A stretch of 39,285 bases of DNA, taken from positions 1-39,285 of the forward strand of contig DUQP01000065.1 in assembly GCA_012837735.1 (NCBI GenBank), read 5' to 3'. How positions within the stretch are numbered: the first letter of the stretch is position 1; each line of letters begins with the position of its first letter. The notes under the pieces were generated by a model. It saw nothing but the letters and a program-made list of their open reading frames with translations. It was not told the DNA's origin and searched no databases. Below, piece after piece: positions 12,391 through 29,160 of the stretch. Both the position numbers and the translations under genes were made by a program. Origin of the DNA: Bacillota bacterium. Lineage in GTDB: Bacteria; Bacillota; Sulfobacillia; UBA3575; DUQP01.

Positions 12391-13570
12391 GTTCAGCCCT
12401 CCGTGACCACCCATACTCTCTCGCTAATCCGGCCAGGTAAGCACAGCCCAGCGGCAAAGCGGACTCATCAATCACAAAGCCGGGGTGATGCCAGGGGTGG
12501 CCACCGGCCTTTGGCCTGATCCCCAACAGGCTATAGACGCCAGGCACCTTCTCCAAATAACGGGCAAAATCCTCTCCCACCATCACCGGCCTGTCCAACC
12601 AGACAAAAGACCCTTCCATCCCCGCCACCACCCGGGCGGCCAGTTCCACCAGGCGGTGGTCGTTGATCACGGGCGAGAAAGCCGGTTCGTAATCCAGTCT
12701 GGCCCCGCCCCCGAAGGCAGCCGCCACCCCCTGGGCTATGGCTGCCATTCGTTCCGGCAGCCAGGCCCGGAAAGCGGGATTCAAGTAGCGGGTGGTGCCG
12801 GTCATCTGCACTCGGTCCGTGATTACATTGAAGCCTGTCCCGCCTGTGATGGTACCGATGGTCAGCACCAACGGTTCCTGCGGATCAGCCTGGCGGCTGA
12901 CGATCTGTTGCAAAGCTGTCACAACCTGGGCGGCCACGGCGATGGCATCCACCGTGTTCTGGGGAGCTGCCCCATGTCCTCCCTGCCCCGTAATAGTAAG
13001 GGTGAAACGGTCGGCGGCCGCCATGATTGGTCCTGGCCGCAACCCGAACTGGCCAGCCGGCAAGTCCGGGCTGACATGCAGGGCCGCCACCGCTTCCACC
13101 CCGTGGTCGCTTAATGCGCCATCTGCGATCATGGCAACCGCGCCGCCGGGGGGCAGTTCTTCAGCCGGTTGAAACAGGAACACCACCCGTCCGGGGAACA
13201 GCTCACGGTGCGTGGCAATTAACTTGGCCGCCCCCAACAACATGGCGACGTGCGCGTCATGCCCGCAGGCATGCATGAAACCAGGTCGCTGCGATGCATA
13301 TGGCAGGCCGGTATCCTCTTGCACCAAAATGCAATCCATGTCTGCCCGTAGCGCAATCGTGCCGGCCTCCGGGTCGCCCTCATGCACCGCCACTACGCCG
13401 GTGCCGCCTACCCCGGTAAAGATTTGCAATCCCAATCCTCGCACATAGTCGCACACCAGTTGGGCAGTGCGCTCTTCCTGGAAAGCCGGTTCCGGCCAGC
13501 TATGGATTTGCCGGCGCACAGCCACCAGTTCCGGCGCTATTTTTTCGGCTGCCCGGCGCAAATCGCTCAT
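12374..13570 (-). CDS. M20 family amidohydrolase (N-acyl amino acid/aminoacylase type)
   Basis: From ATG 13570, overlapping the cysK stop in ATGA, the product is 398 residues. Motifs are [24 protein letters not shown] (with the metal Cys and His), FQPAEE with the catalytic Glu, [10 protein letters not shown] in the dimerisation/lid domain, and a late [10 protein letters not shown]. These define the M20D amidohydrolases that remove acyl groups from amino acids, such as hippurate hydrolase and the SndA/SndB-type N-acetylcysteine deacylases. Tight coupling to cysK suggests an N-acyl cysteine-related substrate, which is an inference. The open frame continues 61 codons upstream, but inside cysK. 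Confidence 0.9.
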
Positions 13571-14502
13571 GCCCCATCCTCCCCCAGGAACAGCGCTGTG
13601 CTCAGGTAACGGTCGCCTCCGTCCGGGAGAAGCACCACCAGCAGCCGCTCGGCGTTTTCCTGCCGCCCGGCCAGCTGCAAAGCAGCATGAACCGCTGCCC
13701 CGGAAGAAATGCCCACCAGCAGTCCCTCCATTTGCGCTAAGCGCCGGGCACAAACGAGCGCCTGTTCCGTCGCCACAGGCATTATTTCATCCACGAGGCC
13801 TAGCTCCAGCACCGCCGGCACAAAACCGGCACCAATTCCCTGGATGCCATGATTCCCTCGTGCTTGGCCGGAAAGAACAGCCGACTCGGCCGGTTCCACC
13901 GCCACCGCCTGCAGGGTCGGCCGGTGTTGTTTCAAAAATTTTGCCAGCCCGGTTAACGTTCCGCCTGTTCCCACACCAGCCACGACAATGTCGACTTGTC
14001 CGGCGCTTTGCCGCCAGATCTCCGCCGCCGTGGTTTTGAGATGGGCTTGGGGATTGGCCGGGTTGCTGAATTGCTCCAGCATCACCACACCGGGTTTGCT
14101 GGCCAGTTCCTGTGCTTTTCGCACAGCCCCTGCCATGCCCTCATCCCCCGGCGTAAGGACGATTTCCGCTCCGTAGGCCGCCAACAGTTTCCGGCGCTCC
14201 AGGCTCATTGTTTCCGGCATAGTCAGGATCACCCGGTAACCGCTTACGGCCGCCACCATGGCCAGCCCAATTCCAGTGTTGCCGGAGGTAGGCTCCACCA
14301 ATGTGGCACCGGGCTGCAAGCGACCTGCTTGCTCCGCCTGCCTGATCATCTCCAGGGCAATGCGATCTTTGACGCTGCCGCCAGGATTCATGAACTCCAG
14401 CTTAGCAGCTATTCTGCCCGGCAGGCCGCATGCCAAACGATCCAAATAGACCAGCGGCGTGTTGCCAATTACCTCTGTCACGTCTGCGGCTATCCCTGAC
14501 AT
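13567..14502 (-). CDS. cysK: Cysteine synthase A (O-acetylserine sulfhydrylase)
   Basis: From ATG 14502 (AAAGGAG 7 bases upstream) the product is 311 residues. It shows IGNTPLVYL, the PLP lysine in [12 protein letters not shown], the substrate loop [12 protein letters not shown], the phosphate-binding [10 protein letters not shown] and a late VGISSGAAV. The fold-type II PLP enzyme makes cysteine from O-acetylserine and sulfide. It lies between an M67 (JAMM) protease and an M20 amidohydrolase, an arrangement recalling the mycobacterial mec-cysO-cysM cluster, in which a JAMM enzyme releases cysteine from a sulfur-carrier protein. No CysO/ThiS-like carrier is visible here. Confidence 0.95.
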
Positions 14503-14546
14503 CAGTATTCTCCTTTCCGGCCTGCTTGTCCTCAGCCAGTCCGCCG

Positions 14547-14987
14547 TCATATCCGGACTGGCTGCAGATGGCCGATCGGCGCACTTATTTTCGGCAGGAC
14601 ACGGATGAACTCCGGCCAGGCCTGACCGTCCTTGATATAAAAGCCACGCACCGTGACCGGTCGCCGCAATGAGATGATTACATAAACCACGTCCCGATAA
14701 GCGGCCAATTCGATGTCCCGCCGCGAGGGCTGGGCCGGCGCTGTCGGATGGGAATGATAAATGGCCAGCAGCCGCTCTCCCCGGCGTGCGATCTCATCCA
14801 TCACCTGCGCCTGTTCCCGGGCATCGATCCGGTAACAAACCGGGCTGTTGGCGGCATTGCGCATATGAAAGGCGCGGCGCACCACCCTCCCGGTCCCGGC
14901 TAACATCCCGCAAGCCTCCCAAGGCTGCTCTTGTTGACAGTGGCGGATGACGGCCGCCAATAGAGAGCGACTGATGGTCAGAGCCAT
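14547..14987 (-). CDS. M67 family (JAMM/Mov34) metallopeptidase
   Basis: The 146-residue product starts at ATG 14987 with GGAGGA 8 bases upstream. The JAMM motif is present: an early Glu in WEACGMLAG and then [20 protein letters not shown] with the two zinc His, Ser and Asp. These are prokaryotic deubiquitinase-like proteases that cut C-terminal adducts from ubiquitin-fold sulfur carriers (for example Mec acting on CysO-cysteine). The neighbouring cysK makes a role in cysteine or sulfur transfer plausible, but no carrier is next to it. The upstream extension of the open frame overlaps yunB and is not native. Confidence 0.9.
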
Positions 14988-16993: not shown

Positions 16994-17175
16994 CTGGGTG
17001 ATCTCCCTTCTTGCACTCATTACCTTACCATTAGGAACAATTTTATCCCTTTGTTCGTCATCCTGCTAACGCCATCCCAAAAAGCCTTCCGTCAGTTCCG
17101 GCACAAATACTCCGCCGGGGACGAAAGGCAGACTGAAACTACTCCCCCATCAGGCGGGGACTGGACTTTTCAGGT

Positions 17176-17205
17176 ATTATAGCATGTCGTTGCCATAAGT
17201 GCCAA
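17176..17205 (-). promoter_or_regulatory. Sigma-A-type promoter of tyrS
   Basis: On the minus strand TTGGCA and TATAAT are separated by 18 bases. Transcription would start near 17169, leaving a leader of about 175 bases before the chosen tyrS start. That leader holds a GC-rich hairpin (TCCCC / GGGGGA, about 17144-17160) without a T run. No T-box was seen. Confidence 0.7.
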
Positions 17206-17260
17206 AAGGAAATCCCCTCCCGAGCGCGAAATATTGAGTGTTATGTCGCAAGCAGGCACT

Positions 17261-17290
17261 TTGGACGGCATTTTGCACATATGGTATAAT
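17261..17290 (+). promoter_or_regulatory. Sigma-A-type promoter of the penicillin-binding protein gene
   Basis: TTGGAC, 18 bases, TATAAT. The predicted start is near 17297, giving a leader of about 124 bases. A 7-bp inverted repeat and an SD-start hairpin lie in that leader. Confidence 0.75.
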
Positions 17291-17307
17291 GCAACGTCAC
17301 ATGGAAA

Positions 17308-17327
17308 GTTTACCAAGGATGGTAAAC
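17308..17327 (+). promoter_or_regulatory. Inverted repeat just after the predicted transcription start
   Basis: GTTTACC, six bases, GGTAAAC is a perfect 7-bp inverted repeat about 11 bases after the predicted start. It could be an operator or a 5' stabilising hairpin. There is no T run, so it is not a terminator. Confidence 0.4.
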
Positions 17328-17376
17328 GGAATGTGGCGACACGGCCCGGCAGCGCTGCCAAGCTTCCGGGAATTTG

Positions 17377-17420
17377 AAAGGAGGTGGCGGTTGCCAGGCA
17401 GCTGATGGCAACCGCAGATC
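17377..17420 (+). promoter_or_regulatory. Perfect Shine-Dalgarno separated from its ATG by a hairpin
   Basis: AAAGGAGGT (17377-17385) is 35 bases from the ATG at 17421, too far for normal initiation. Between them GCGGTTGCC (17387-17395) and GGCAACCGC (17407-17415) form a perfect 9-bp stem with an 11-base loop. Folding would leave about 6 unpaired bases between SD and ATG. The strand also has a TTG at 17391 opening a four-codon frame that ends in TGA. No in-frame start lies between that stop and 17421. Confidence 0.65.
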
Positions 17421-19991
17421 ATGAGTGCCACTAAACGCAAGGGCAAACTCAACACCTGGCGAGTCGTATTGCTAGTCGGGTTGTTGTGCTGTTTTGTCGG
17501 GGTCGGGACAGCAGCCGGCTTTGTAGCCGGGGTTGTAAAAGACCTGCCGGCGGTCAGTGAACTTGACCCTGCCAAGCAACAAATGGAGACATCCTTTATC
17601 CTCAACGAAGACGGCAGTCAGGTTGTAGCGCGCTTGCACGGGGAGGAAAACCGCGTCCTGATCGACATCGACGAGCTCCCAGAGCACCTCTTGAATGCCT
17701 TCATCGCCATTGAGGATAAACATTTTTGGTCCCATCCGGGAATTGATGTGACAGGCATTATCCGCGCCACCTTCAAAATCCTGACCGGTGGGGGTCTGCA
17801 GAGCGGCAGCACCATCACCCAGCAGCTGGCCAAAGAAGCGTTTTTGACCCAGGAGCAGACCATCCGCCGGAAAGTGGCGGACATGATTCTGGCAATCCAG
17901 TTGGAGCGGCGTTATACCAAGAAGGAGATCCTGGAGTTCTACCTCAATCAAATCTACCTGGGGCCAGGCGTGAATGGTGTGGAAACGGCCTCCCAATATT
18001 ACTTCGGCAAGAGTGCCCGCGATGTTTCCTTCAGTGAGGCTGCCCTGCTGGCTGGCCTGACGCAAAACCCGGGCCGTTACTCGCCTTTTAACAATCCGGA
18101 AGCAGCGACCAATCGGCGCAACTATGTTTTGACGCGCATGGAAGAGCTGGAAATGATCAGCCCCCAAGAAGCGGAAGCAGCCCGCCAGGAGGGCTTAAAC
18201 CTGAACAAAGAGGGACTAGCAAGTCGCTACCAAGCCCCATACTTCGTGGATTACGTATTGGAGCAACTTTTGGACCGCTATGGCAAGGACTTGGTTTATG
18301 GCGGCGGTTTGAGGGTCTTTACCAGCATTGATCTGGACATCCAACAAGCAGCTGAGGCAGCGGTAGCCAAACACCTGAACGCCGCCTATCCTCTCACCGC
18401 AGAAAAAGCGCAGCCAGAAATGGCCGTGGTCGTGCTCGACCACCGCACAGGACATATCAAGGCCATGGTCGGAGGCCGCGAGCATAAGCGGATGTTATCC
18501 CATAACCGCGCTGTACATTCTCTGCGGCAACCTGGCTCTGCTTTCAAACCGATTGCCGTGTATGCGCCGGCCCTGGACCTGGGCTATACAGCCGCCAGTG
18601 TGATCGACGACTACCCCACCACTTATGTGGTGGCAGGCGGAAGCCAAACTTGGACCCCGCGCAACTACGATAACACCTACCGCGGCCTGATCACAACCCG
18701 TGAGGCTGTGGAAGGTTCCGTGAACGTAGTGGCCGTCAAGCTGCTTGACATGATTGGCATCCGCACCGGCCTGCAATATGCAGAGAAATTTGGCATCAAC
18801 AGCATGGTGGCCACTGGCCCGCAAAGTGACTTTGGCCTAGCCTTGGCCCTAGGCGGCCTGACAAAGGGCGTCTCGGTCCTGGAACTGACGAGCGCTTTCG
18901 GTGTGTTCCCCAATCAGGGCATCCGGGTGGAGCCAGTCGCCATTTTGCGGGTGGTAGACAAGGATGGCAATGTCTTGGAAGACAACACCACTGCCCGTAA
19001 GGAAGTGGTATTAAAGCCCGAGGTAGCGTATTTGATGACAAGCATCTTGGAAAGCACCGTCAAAAACGGTACCGGCCGCGGAGCGGATTTCGGCTACCCA
19101 GCCGGCGGTAAGACGGGCACGACCAGTGACTGCGTGGATGCCTGGTTTGTCGGCTTCACACCCCACTTAGTAGCCGGGATCTGGATGGGCTATGACCAGC
19201 CGCAAGCCATGGTTAATCCCCTGACAGGTGGGCCAGTGTGGGGTTCTTCATTTTGTGTGCCGGTCTGGCGGGAAATCATGGCCAATGCCCATGCCAATTT
19301 GCCGGTCCAGCAGTTCCCGCAGGCAAACAATATCGTGACATTACCAGTTTGCACCAAGTCTGGCAAACTGCCATCATCTTGCTGTCCACCGGAGCAAATC
19401 AGGACTGAAGTCTTCATCCGCGGCACCGAACCGACCACCGAGTGTGAAACGCACCTGCGCGCCTGGGTCTGTTCCGAAACTGGGGAACTGGCCACTGCCA
19501 GGTGTCCGGCACCGATGGAAAAGGTGTTCATCCAACGGGAGGTGCCTTGGGTACCGATCACAGATCACCGCGGGGTGGCGGTAAAACCGTTGGACGCTGT
19601 TCAAGAGCTCCCGGTGATCACGTGTGCCACCCACCAGCACTCCGTCCCTGTGATCAGGGACGATGATGACGATGACCGAGACCACCACGGCCCCACCCAG
19701 CCCAGCGGGCCCAAGCCTACGGACAACGCGCAGGTGGTGGTGGATGGCAATAACGTTTTGCCGGACCACATTGTGGCCAGAGCCAACCACCGCCTCACCA
19801 TCCAGGTGACAGCCCATGTGGCGCACCGCCTGCTGATACCGGATTTTGACATTGACCGGTCGATTCGGGCTGGTACACTGGCCACGGTCCGATTCACCCC
19901 GGATAAAGTCGGGACTTTCCCCTTCCAGATCCTCATTAGTGATGAAGACGGCGAAAAGACCATCAGCGGGGTCCTGGAAATAAAAAAATAA
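17421..19991 (+). CDS. Class A penicillin-binding protein (PBP1A type) with C-terminal cupredoxin-like domain
   Basis: The 856-residue product makes and cross-links peptidoglycan at the outer face of the membrane. In order: a basic N-terminus and membrane segment (residues 14-38); a GT51 glycosyltransferase domain (about 55-230, catalytic Glu98 in AIEDKHFWSH, QSGSTITQQLAKEAF); and a transpeptidase domain (about 300-620) with Ser373 in GSAFK, SVN at 433-435 and KTGT at 564. A Cys-rich segment (643-735) follows, with seven cysteines in pairs around SGKLPSSCCP and SETGELATARC. Then an Asp-rich/Pro linker (745-766) and a last domain (770-856) ending with VRFTPDKVGTFPFQILIS. That last domain looks like a cupredoxin fold, but the copper Cys is replaced by Gln836. 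The start is fixed by an upstream in-frame stop. Confidence 0.92.
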   Translation: MSATKRKGKLNTWRVVLLVGLLCCFVGVGTAAGFVAGVVKDLPAVSELDPAKQQMETSFILNEDGSQVVARLHGEENRVLIDIDELPEHLLNAFIAIEDKHFWSHPGIDVTGIIRATFKILTGGGLQSGSTITQQLAKEAFLTQEQTIRRKVADMILAIQLERRYTKKEILEFYLNQIYLGPGVNGVETASQYYFGKSARDVSFSEAALLAGLTQNPGRYSPFNNPEAATNRRNYVLTRMEELEMISPQEAEAARQEGLNLNKEGLASRYQAPYFVDYVLEQLLDRYGKDLVYGGGLRVFTSIDLDIQQAAEAAVAKHLNAAYPLTAEKAQPEMAVVVLDHRTGHIKAMVGGREHKRMLSHNRAVHSLRQPGSAFKPIAVYAPALDLGYTAASVIDDYPTTYVVAGGSQTWTPRNYDNTYRGLITTREAVEGSVNVVAVKLLDMIGIRTGLQYAEKFGINSMVATGPQSDFGLALALGGLTKGVSVLELTSAFGVFPNQGIRVEPVAILRVVDKDGNVLEDNTTARKEVVLKPEVAYLMTSILESTVKNGTGRGADFGYPAGGKTGTTSDCVDAWFVGFTPHLVAGIWMGYDQPQAMVNPLTGGPVWGSSFCVPVWREIMANAHANLPVQQFPQANNIVTLPVCTKSGKLPSSCCPPEQIRTEVFIRGTEPTTECETHLRAWVCSETGELATARCPAPMEKVFIQREVPWVPITDHRGVAVKPLDAVQELPVITCATHQHSVPVIRDDDDDDRDHHGPTQPSGPKPTDNAQVVVDGNNVLPDHIVARANHRLTIQVTAHVAHRLLIPDFDIDRSIRAGTLATVRFTPDKVGTFPFQILISDEDGEKTISGVLEIKK

Positions 19992-20260: not shown

Positions 20261-20773
20261 ATGATCAGGGTCAGAACCATGCAAGCGCTCCTAGTCGGGG
20301 TTTGTTTAATCGCACTTTGCTCAGGGATTGCCGCCGCAGGAGGCAAACTGCCGGTACCCGCCCCCGACCGGCCGGTGAATCATGATGGCGGTGACCCTTC
20401 CCTGAATGAGGAAGTGCGCCAAAAACAACAGGAAATCGATCAGTATCTGTTCGTGGACCATGCCCGAGAAATCGCTGGTTTTCAAGTGACCCACACGGCA
20501 CCGCAGGCAGACTATGTTGAGATTGGGATTACTCCGTTCAGCGTGGAAAACGCTGCTTATCTTTATGACATATTTGGTCATGATATGGTGCTGGTCGTGG
20601 CCGGACGGCAGGCGGAATTACTCAGCCCAGCCACAGCCTATAATGATGTGGAGATTGATGCGGTGGCACAGGCCGGCGTGTCACCGGCCTGGTATGCCCT
20701 GGGGGTTTTCGTGCTCATCGGCGGGTTCATTGTTCTGCGGTGGAAGCGAGCGATTAAAAACACGCTTTTGTAA
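20261..20773 (+). CDS. Secreted, C-terminally membrane-anchored protein of unknown function
   Basis: From ATG 20261 (AAGGGAG 8 bases upstream) the product is 170 residues. It has a signal peptide (hydrophobic 8-25, likely cut after SGIAAA) and a Pro-rich segment. The soluble domain has an EIAGFQVTHTAP motif, then YVEIGITPFSVENAAYLYDIFG and VLVVAGRQAELL. A single C-terminal membrane segment (about 143-161) precedes a basic tail. The layout suggests a domain held on the outer face of the membrane. I do not recognise the family. It follows the penicillin-binding protein and the 52-residue protein on the same strand, so an envelope role is a guess from context. A TTG six codons upstream is a weaker start. 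Confidence 0.8.
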   Translation: MIRVRTMQALLVGVCLIALCSGIAAAGGKLPVPAPDRPVNHDGGDPSLNEEVRQKQQEIDQYLFVDHAREIAGFQVTHTAPQADYVEIGITPFSVENAAYLYDIFGHDMVLVVAGRQAELLSPATAYNDVEIDAVAQAGVSPAWYALGVFVLIGGFIVLRWKRAIKNTLL

Positions 20774-28906: not shown

Positions 28907-29160
28907 AAAAAATTGAGGCTTCCATCCCCTAACCGGGACGAAAGCCTGGCTTCCGCGGTACCACCCCTGTTGAGTCGATGACTCCGCTCATACCCGATAA
29001 CGGTGGGGTACCGGTCCGGCCTACTCACCCAATGGGGCTTCAACCGGCAGCTCCAGGGCGAACTTCAGACGGACCAAACCGGGCAAGGCTCCCAGTTCAC
29101 AACCCCGCCTCCCTGGCGGCTGTTCCGTCCTACTCTCCCTTTCATGGCCTATTGGTCACA
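28907..29160 (-). promoter_or_regulatory. T-box riboswitch of pheST (phenylalanine, specifier UUC)
   Basis: The minus strand has the T-box core AACAGGGGTGGTACCGCGG (28953-28971). A terminator hairpin follows (AGGCTTTCG... pairing with ...GAAGCCT, then TTTTTT, 28907-28947). Upstream is a stem I region with a GAGAGTAGG motif, and GAAG-TTC-GCC places the specifier codon UUC at 29060-29062. Uncharged tRNA-Phe would stabilise the antiterminator. The 5' boundary is approximate. Confidence 0.92.

Follow-up and report, generated by a model that had tools for sequence, protein, structure and literature searches.

A distant Shine-Dalgarno and a gap-filling hairpin suggest an accommodated ribosome binding site before a bacterial class A penicillin-binding protein gene

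The mRNA of a class A penicillin-binding protein (PBP), encoded on a 39,285-nucleotide stretch of DNA from a Bacillota bacterium (hereafter, the window), probably has a ribosome binding site whose spacing is set by a hairpin, an 'accommodated' site like those of genes 25 and 38 of phage T4, where this mechanism has mainly been proven so far; we judge this from its predicted folding and from analogy with those two genes. From the sequence, geometry, predicted stability and rarity of the arrangement, each obtained directly, we infer that the ribosome uses the hairpin, and we regard the PBP leader as a plausible further case of the known T4 mechanism.

The gene (17421-19991, plus strand) encodes 856 amino acids with matches to the transglycosylase (PF00912) and transpeptidase (PF00905) domains; after an Asp-rich linker, a C-terminal region (19716-19925) is cupredoxin-like (PF13473; 22.7 bits, short of the 27-bit cut-off), which is to our knowledge unusual in a class A PBP. 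We assigned the start by elimination to the ATG at 17421-17423, because the stretch from the in-frame TGA to the conserved basic N-terminus contains no other in-frame ATG, GTG or TTG. The resulting N-terminus, MSATKRKGK, is by eye similar to those of relatives, e.g., MATTKKKGKK in genome G019. The sole strong Shine-Dalgarno (SD) before the gene is AAAGGAGGT at 17377-17385, whose duplex with a consensus anti-SD is calculated at -14.8 kcal/mol; a search of the draft genome for the 16S gene as the source of its own anti-SD returned none. The preliminary description had noted that this SD sits 35 bases from the ATG, and the sequence agrees: 35 nt separate the two elements, the ATG follows the end of GGAGG at a linear distance of 36 nt, and no SD match of at least 4 nt occurs 3-13 nt from ATG 17421. 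Taking the genome's normal spacing range as reference, the SD therefore lies beyond normal reach, and there is no other.

The gap between the SD and the ATG is filled by a hairpin with a perfect 10-bp stem, in which the 5' arm GCGGUUGCCA (17387-17396) pairs with the 3' arm UGGCAACCGC (17406-17415) across the 9-nt loop GGCAGCUGA (17397-17405), at a predicted dG of -17.9 kcal/mol. The preliminary description had recognized a perfect stem filling this gap but gave it 9 bp, a length we correct to 10 bp, and its statement that folding leaves a normal spacing holds: removing the 29-nt hairpin reduces the distance from GGAGG to ATG from 36 to 7 nt (2 nt before and 5 nt after the hairpin), which together with 8 nt is among the most frequent SD spacings of the genome. 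By prediction, a stable hairpin thus leaves a functional spacing.

We propose that the anti-SD of the 30S subunit would pair with AAAGGAGGU while the 29-nt hairpin directly 3' of the SD remains folded, looped out of the path of the mRNA. AUG 17421, 5 nt past the hairpin, would then lie at an effective 7 nt from GGAGG and could enter the P site. The folded hairpin would also hide a well-spaced competing TTG and most of the sequence TGATG, which would favour the correct start.

Among 20,000 dinucleotide shuffles of the 35-nt gap, 34 contained a perfect stem of at least 9 bp and 12 one of at least 10 bp, and the fold of the gap has a z-score of -3.64. With eight perfect hairpins of at least 9 bp in the window, the hairpin alone is not rare there; its placement before a start is. 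Across 690 kb of the genome, 62 perfect hairpins of at least 10 bp were counted, three of which end no more than 12 nt 5' of a candidate start, that of the PBP gene among them; one of the three is terminator-like. For the 34 genes called in the window, the chance of one such hairpin at some start would be a few per cent, and simple coincidence becomes less likely given that the sole SD is far away and that the folded spacing falls at the genome's peak. When the palindrome was searched for as a DNA operator or repeat, the genome contained one exact copy (its own) and one match with three mismatches, and a reversed control of the pattern also matched once per strand; a repeat element or operator was rejected, the palindrome being unique in the genome. 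Elsewhere in the window, a perfect inverted repeat (14533-14564; 11 bp, 10-nt loop) lies at the overlap of two minus-strand genes, a cysteine synthase-like frame (13567-14550) and a frame ending at 14547.

The start-site habits of this genome (G000) were surveyed using simple mechanical gene and start calls, which yielded 613 genes in 689,653 bases (44.5%) and 611 evaluable starts. An SD of at least 5 nt is found 3-13 nt from the start in 423 of the 611 genes, with a peak at 7 nt (85 genes) and 8 nt (96 genes); the remaining 188 have none, and initiation without an SD is common in this genome. Among these 188 genes we counted 66 combinations of a start with a far SD (at least 6 nt, 18-60 nt away), and a perfect gap-filling stem was present in 4 of the 66 at a length of at least 6 bp (expected 0.18) and in one, the PBP gene, at a length of at least 7 bp (expected 0.035). 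The other three stems of at least 6 bp belong to an internal start at 20375 and to the GTG and the ATG of recA. In the control genomes, a filling stem accompanies 0 of 10 far-SD combinations in G001, 0 of 16 in G022 and 1 of 14 in G085 (a 5-bp stem). Within the 44.5% of the genome surveyed, the SD-hairpin-AUG arrangement is exceptional and does not look like a genome-wide strategy.

Several further sites were considered as candidates. Three were rejected on manual inspection: the one at 20375 in the window as an internal start (the true start is likely 20261, with AAGGGAG), L086:8254 as lying inside an overlapping ORF, where a later start reads as a signal peptide, and L145:260 of G001 as lying inside a longer frame. 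A gene that we take to be recA from its sequence (L093:10245-10283 of this genome, minus strand) lacks a close SD and has AGGTGA about 30 nt upstream, with the 6-bp stem GCCACT/AGTGGC between; this hairpin is absent from the minimum-energy fold of the wider leader, the relatives' recA leaders that we compared by eye mostly have a purine-rich, SD-like stretch near the start, and recA is a weak further candidate. In G085, L206:12147-12177 (start MPAVIVVGSQWGDEGKGK) combines AGGAGG, the 5-bp stem CGGGT-GTAA-ACCCG and an ATG before a gene that is presumably purA, again named from its sequence, and its spacing is 22 nt linear and 8 nt folded. It resembles T4 gene 38 and, with its start secure, is a second natural, albeit weak, candidate; a 5-bp filling stem of this sort is expected 0.32 times in the G085 sample.

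Next, we compared the energetic cost of the possible routes to initiation. At 37 C, the predicted probability of the hairpin is 0.85-0.99 for each of the leader lengths folded. Exposing the SD and the AUG with the hairpin kept was calculated to cost 6.3 kcal/mol (10.6 kcal/mol when 13 nt after the AUG are included), compared with 14.7 kcal/mol for a start at the TTG within the stem (21.3 kcal/mol as the counterpart of the 10.6 figure), 16.2 kcal/mol for the AUG without an SD and 31.1 kcal/mol for opening the whole gap. In this calculation, which leaves out steric limits inside the 30S, the accommodated route comes out as the cheapest of those computed by about 8 kcal/mol. Together with the 7-nt spacing and the fold probability, this cost makes the first alternative offered in the preliminary description, that folding places the SD next to the AUG, the best-supported one.

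The same figures bear on the possibility that the far SD and its hairpin are mere coincidence and that translation starts at AUG 17421 by an SD-independent route, with upstream standby binding as an aid. Such a start would be in keeping with the 188 of 611 evaluable genes noted above, and the word AAGGAGGT is found twice more elsewhere in the window. We nevertheless consider this explanation unlikely, given the cost of 16.2 against 6.3 kcal/mol and the improbability that a 9-nt SD, a 10-bp stem filling the gap and a modal folded spacing coincide.

That a 10-bp hairpin would fit within the 30S is suggested by analogy with T4 genes 25 and 38 and with E. coli thrS. According to PMC3014915, the SD-AUG distance of T4 gene 25 is shortened from 27 to 11 nt by a hairpin, with mutational (reporter) evidence and DMS probing reported, and that of T4 gene 38 from 22 to 5 nt by structure between SD and AUG, with mutational support reported. 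Like gene 25, the PBP leader has a far SD that a hairpin would bring closer, but the T4 structure removes 16 nt and that of the PBP leader 29; likewise, the gap of gene 38 is shorter than that of the PBP gene. The larger size of the 29-nt hairpin relative to the T4 cases counts against the accommodated reading. Moreover, gene 25 is a phage gene tested by reporter and DMS experiments and gene 38 is reportedly backed by mutations, whereas the PBP gene is a bacterial cell-wall gene and its case is a prediction only. The split ribosomal binding site of thrS is described as one in which a long hairpin is held by the 30S without being unfolded (PMC3936740 and PMC3858243). This thrS hairpin (domain 2, -14 to -48), a binding site for ThrRS, is upstream of the SD, whereas the PBP hairpin lies between SD and AUG and is not known to bind a ligand. 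Within titles, abstracts and text passages of the open-access literature, a scope that leaves out most subscription journals, we recognized no bacterial chromosomal example of an SD-hairpin-AUG site. If the accommodated reading is correct, the T4 mechanism would also serve a bacterial chromosomal cell-wall gene, with an SD that depends wholly on a folded hairpin, and the leader would provide a clean, easily mutated test of the hairpin size that the 30S can hold between the SD and the P site. Most gene finders and translation models score the SD by linear distance.

To place the leader among its relatives, we drew on 101 genomes, all of which matched the PBP, and examined leaders at 70 loci (the window, G001 and 68 others); a contig search gave nine loci with 29-44% identity at the best segment, which were left out of the leader comparison. 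An SD of at least 5 nt lies 3-13 nt from the start at 39 of the 70 loci. A strong SD (at least 6 nt) beyond 13 nt with none nearer is confined to the window and G001, and a far SD with a filling hairpin was found in the window only, with 0 of the 68 distant loci having one. G001 is the only other genome of the order in the collection; its PBP is 57% identical, and its leader has AAGGAGG 15 nt from the ATG. A 6-bp stem in that leader (GCCGUC/GAUGGC, 9-nt loop, L002:318-338) begins inside the SD and contains the AUG in its 3' arm, and because of this, as its sequence reads, it cannot work as the hairpin of the window would. A leader motif common to G001, CAAGGATGG, was dropped, as the two leaders do not align there; the 13-base pattern searched for matches nothing in G000 but the leader of the window itself, and its two matches in G001 lie at other places.

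As read from these leaders, the relatives compared, none of which is close, lend conservation of the arrangement no support. The preliminary description had held that relatives with the same gene, a standard SD and no hairpin would refute the proposal, and the distant relatives are mostly of this kind; in our view this does not settle the matter, since the hairpin of T4 gene 25, too, occurs in close relatives only (PMC3014915). By this analogy, the pattern would fit a recent, lineage-limited origin, and it would fit coincidence too.

The wider leader is itself structured. A putative promoter, with a -10-like hexamer TATAAT at 17285-17290 and a -35-like TGGACG at 17262 (consensus matches only), would place the transcription start near 17296-17298 and give a leader of about 125 nt, with a predicted stem-loop at its 5' end (17297-17335). 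Measured against 200 shuffles, none of which was as good, the fold of the region 17296-17460 is better by 4.0 sd, and the leader may therefore have a wider regulatory role. At 37 C, the predicted unpaired probability of the GGAGG core is only 0.19-0.47, which counts against the accommodated reading: AGGUG (17382-17386) has a potential partner in CACCU of PBP codons 11-13 (17453-17457), a competing structure, or, in short folds, in upstream bases. The stable leader fold and the low SD accessibility would both suit a brake or switch, in which the 5' stem, the 10-bp hairpin and the AGGUG:CACCU pairing keep PBP translation low until they are opened by heat, a protein or an RNA, and the hairpin of G001 is also located at the start codon. 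However, the longer leader folds show the SD little more accessible at 60 C, and Rfam searches of the window and of the PBP leader (17020-17460) gave, on the plus strand, no match at threshold to a riboswitch or leader family, leaving this explanation improbable in our view. Elsewhere in the window, a T-box leader (RF00230, 94.7 bits, gathering 93) lies at 28931-29154 on the minus strand, before a minus-strand gene.

The leader also contains the four-codon TTG frame pointed out in the preliminary description (TTG CCA GGC AGC TGA, 17391-17405), which is in the PBP frame with an SD spacing of 6 nt and ends at a TGA (17403-17405) within the hairpin loop. Its TTG lies in the 5' arm of the stem and is predicted to be unpaired at 0.001-0.009 (0.1-0.9%) across the leader folds. 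It is conceivable, although we place little confidence in it, that the hairpin acts as a start-site selector, such that the SD would serve the PBP AUG when the hairpin is folded and the TTG minigene when it is unfolded or before the 3' arm is made, and that SD-hairpin-AUG sites are more widespread in the class, with recA and the purA of G085 as weak candidates. Were this the case, the output of a cell-wall synthase would depend on leader folding in a bacterial chromosomal housekeeping gene.

Under the second alternative of the preliminary description, translation would begin at TTG 17391 and end at TGA 17405, and the PBP would be made by re-initiation at AUG 17421. The SD spacing is ideal for such a start, TTG starts are common (90 of 322 genes with an SD in a 536,650-base subset), and the stop is close to the main start, at a distance of 15 nt. 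In addition, the leader shares with regulatory minigenes such as the txe leader a short SD-bearing frame just before the main start, and minigenes are able to modulate a downstream gene (PMC8708949). Unlike in those minigenes, the start codon sits in a stable predicted stem whose opening was calculated to cost 14.7-21.3 kcal/mol, and G001 has no start codon at the place matching TTG 17391; we therefore regard re-initiation as very unlikely. That TTG 17391 is instead the true PBP start, with the TGA at 17403-17405 a sequence or assembly error or a recent nonsense change, gains from its PBP frame and perfect SD in a draft genome of 67 contigs, but TGA regularly serves as a stop in this genome (177 of 478 genes in the same subset), the TTG would sit inside the 10-bp stem and the extension has by eye no counterpart in the N-termini MAHRKKRK (G001) and MATTKKKGKK (G019), so that we give this reading hardly any credence.

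Two further small frames occupy the leader. A 34-codon open frame (17301-17405), in the same frame as the TTG, starts a few bases past the predicted transcription start, crosses the SD and ends at the loop TGA; it scores -0.05 per codon against a 5th percentile of 0.06 for the genes, and its role as a coupled leader gene is unsupported, although the first 34 codons of the PBP gene itself are likewise low (0.016). A nine-codon ATG frame (17405-17434) overlaps the TGA as TGATG, is out of the PBP frame and ends inside the PBP gene.
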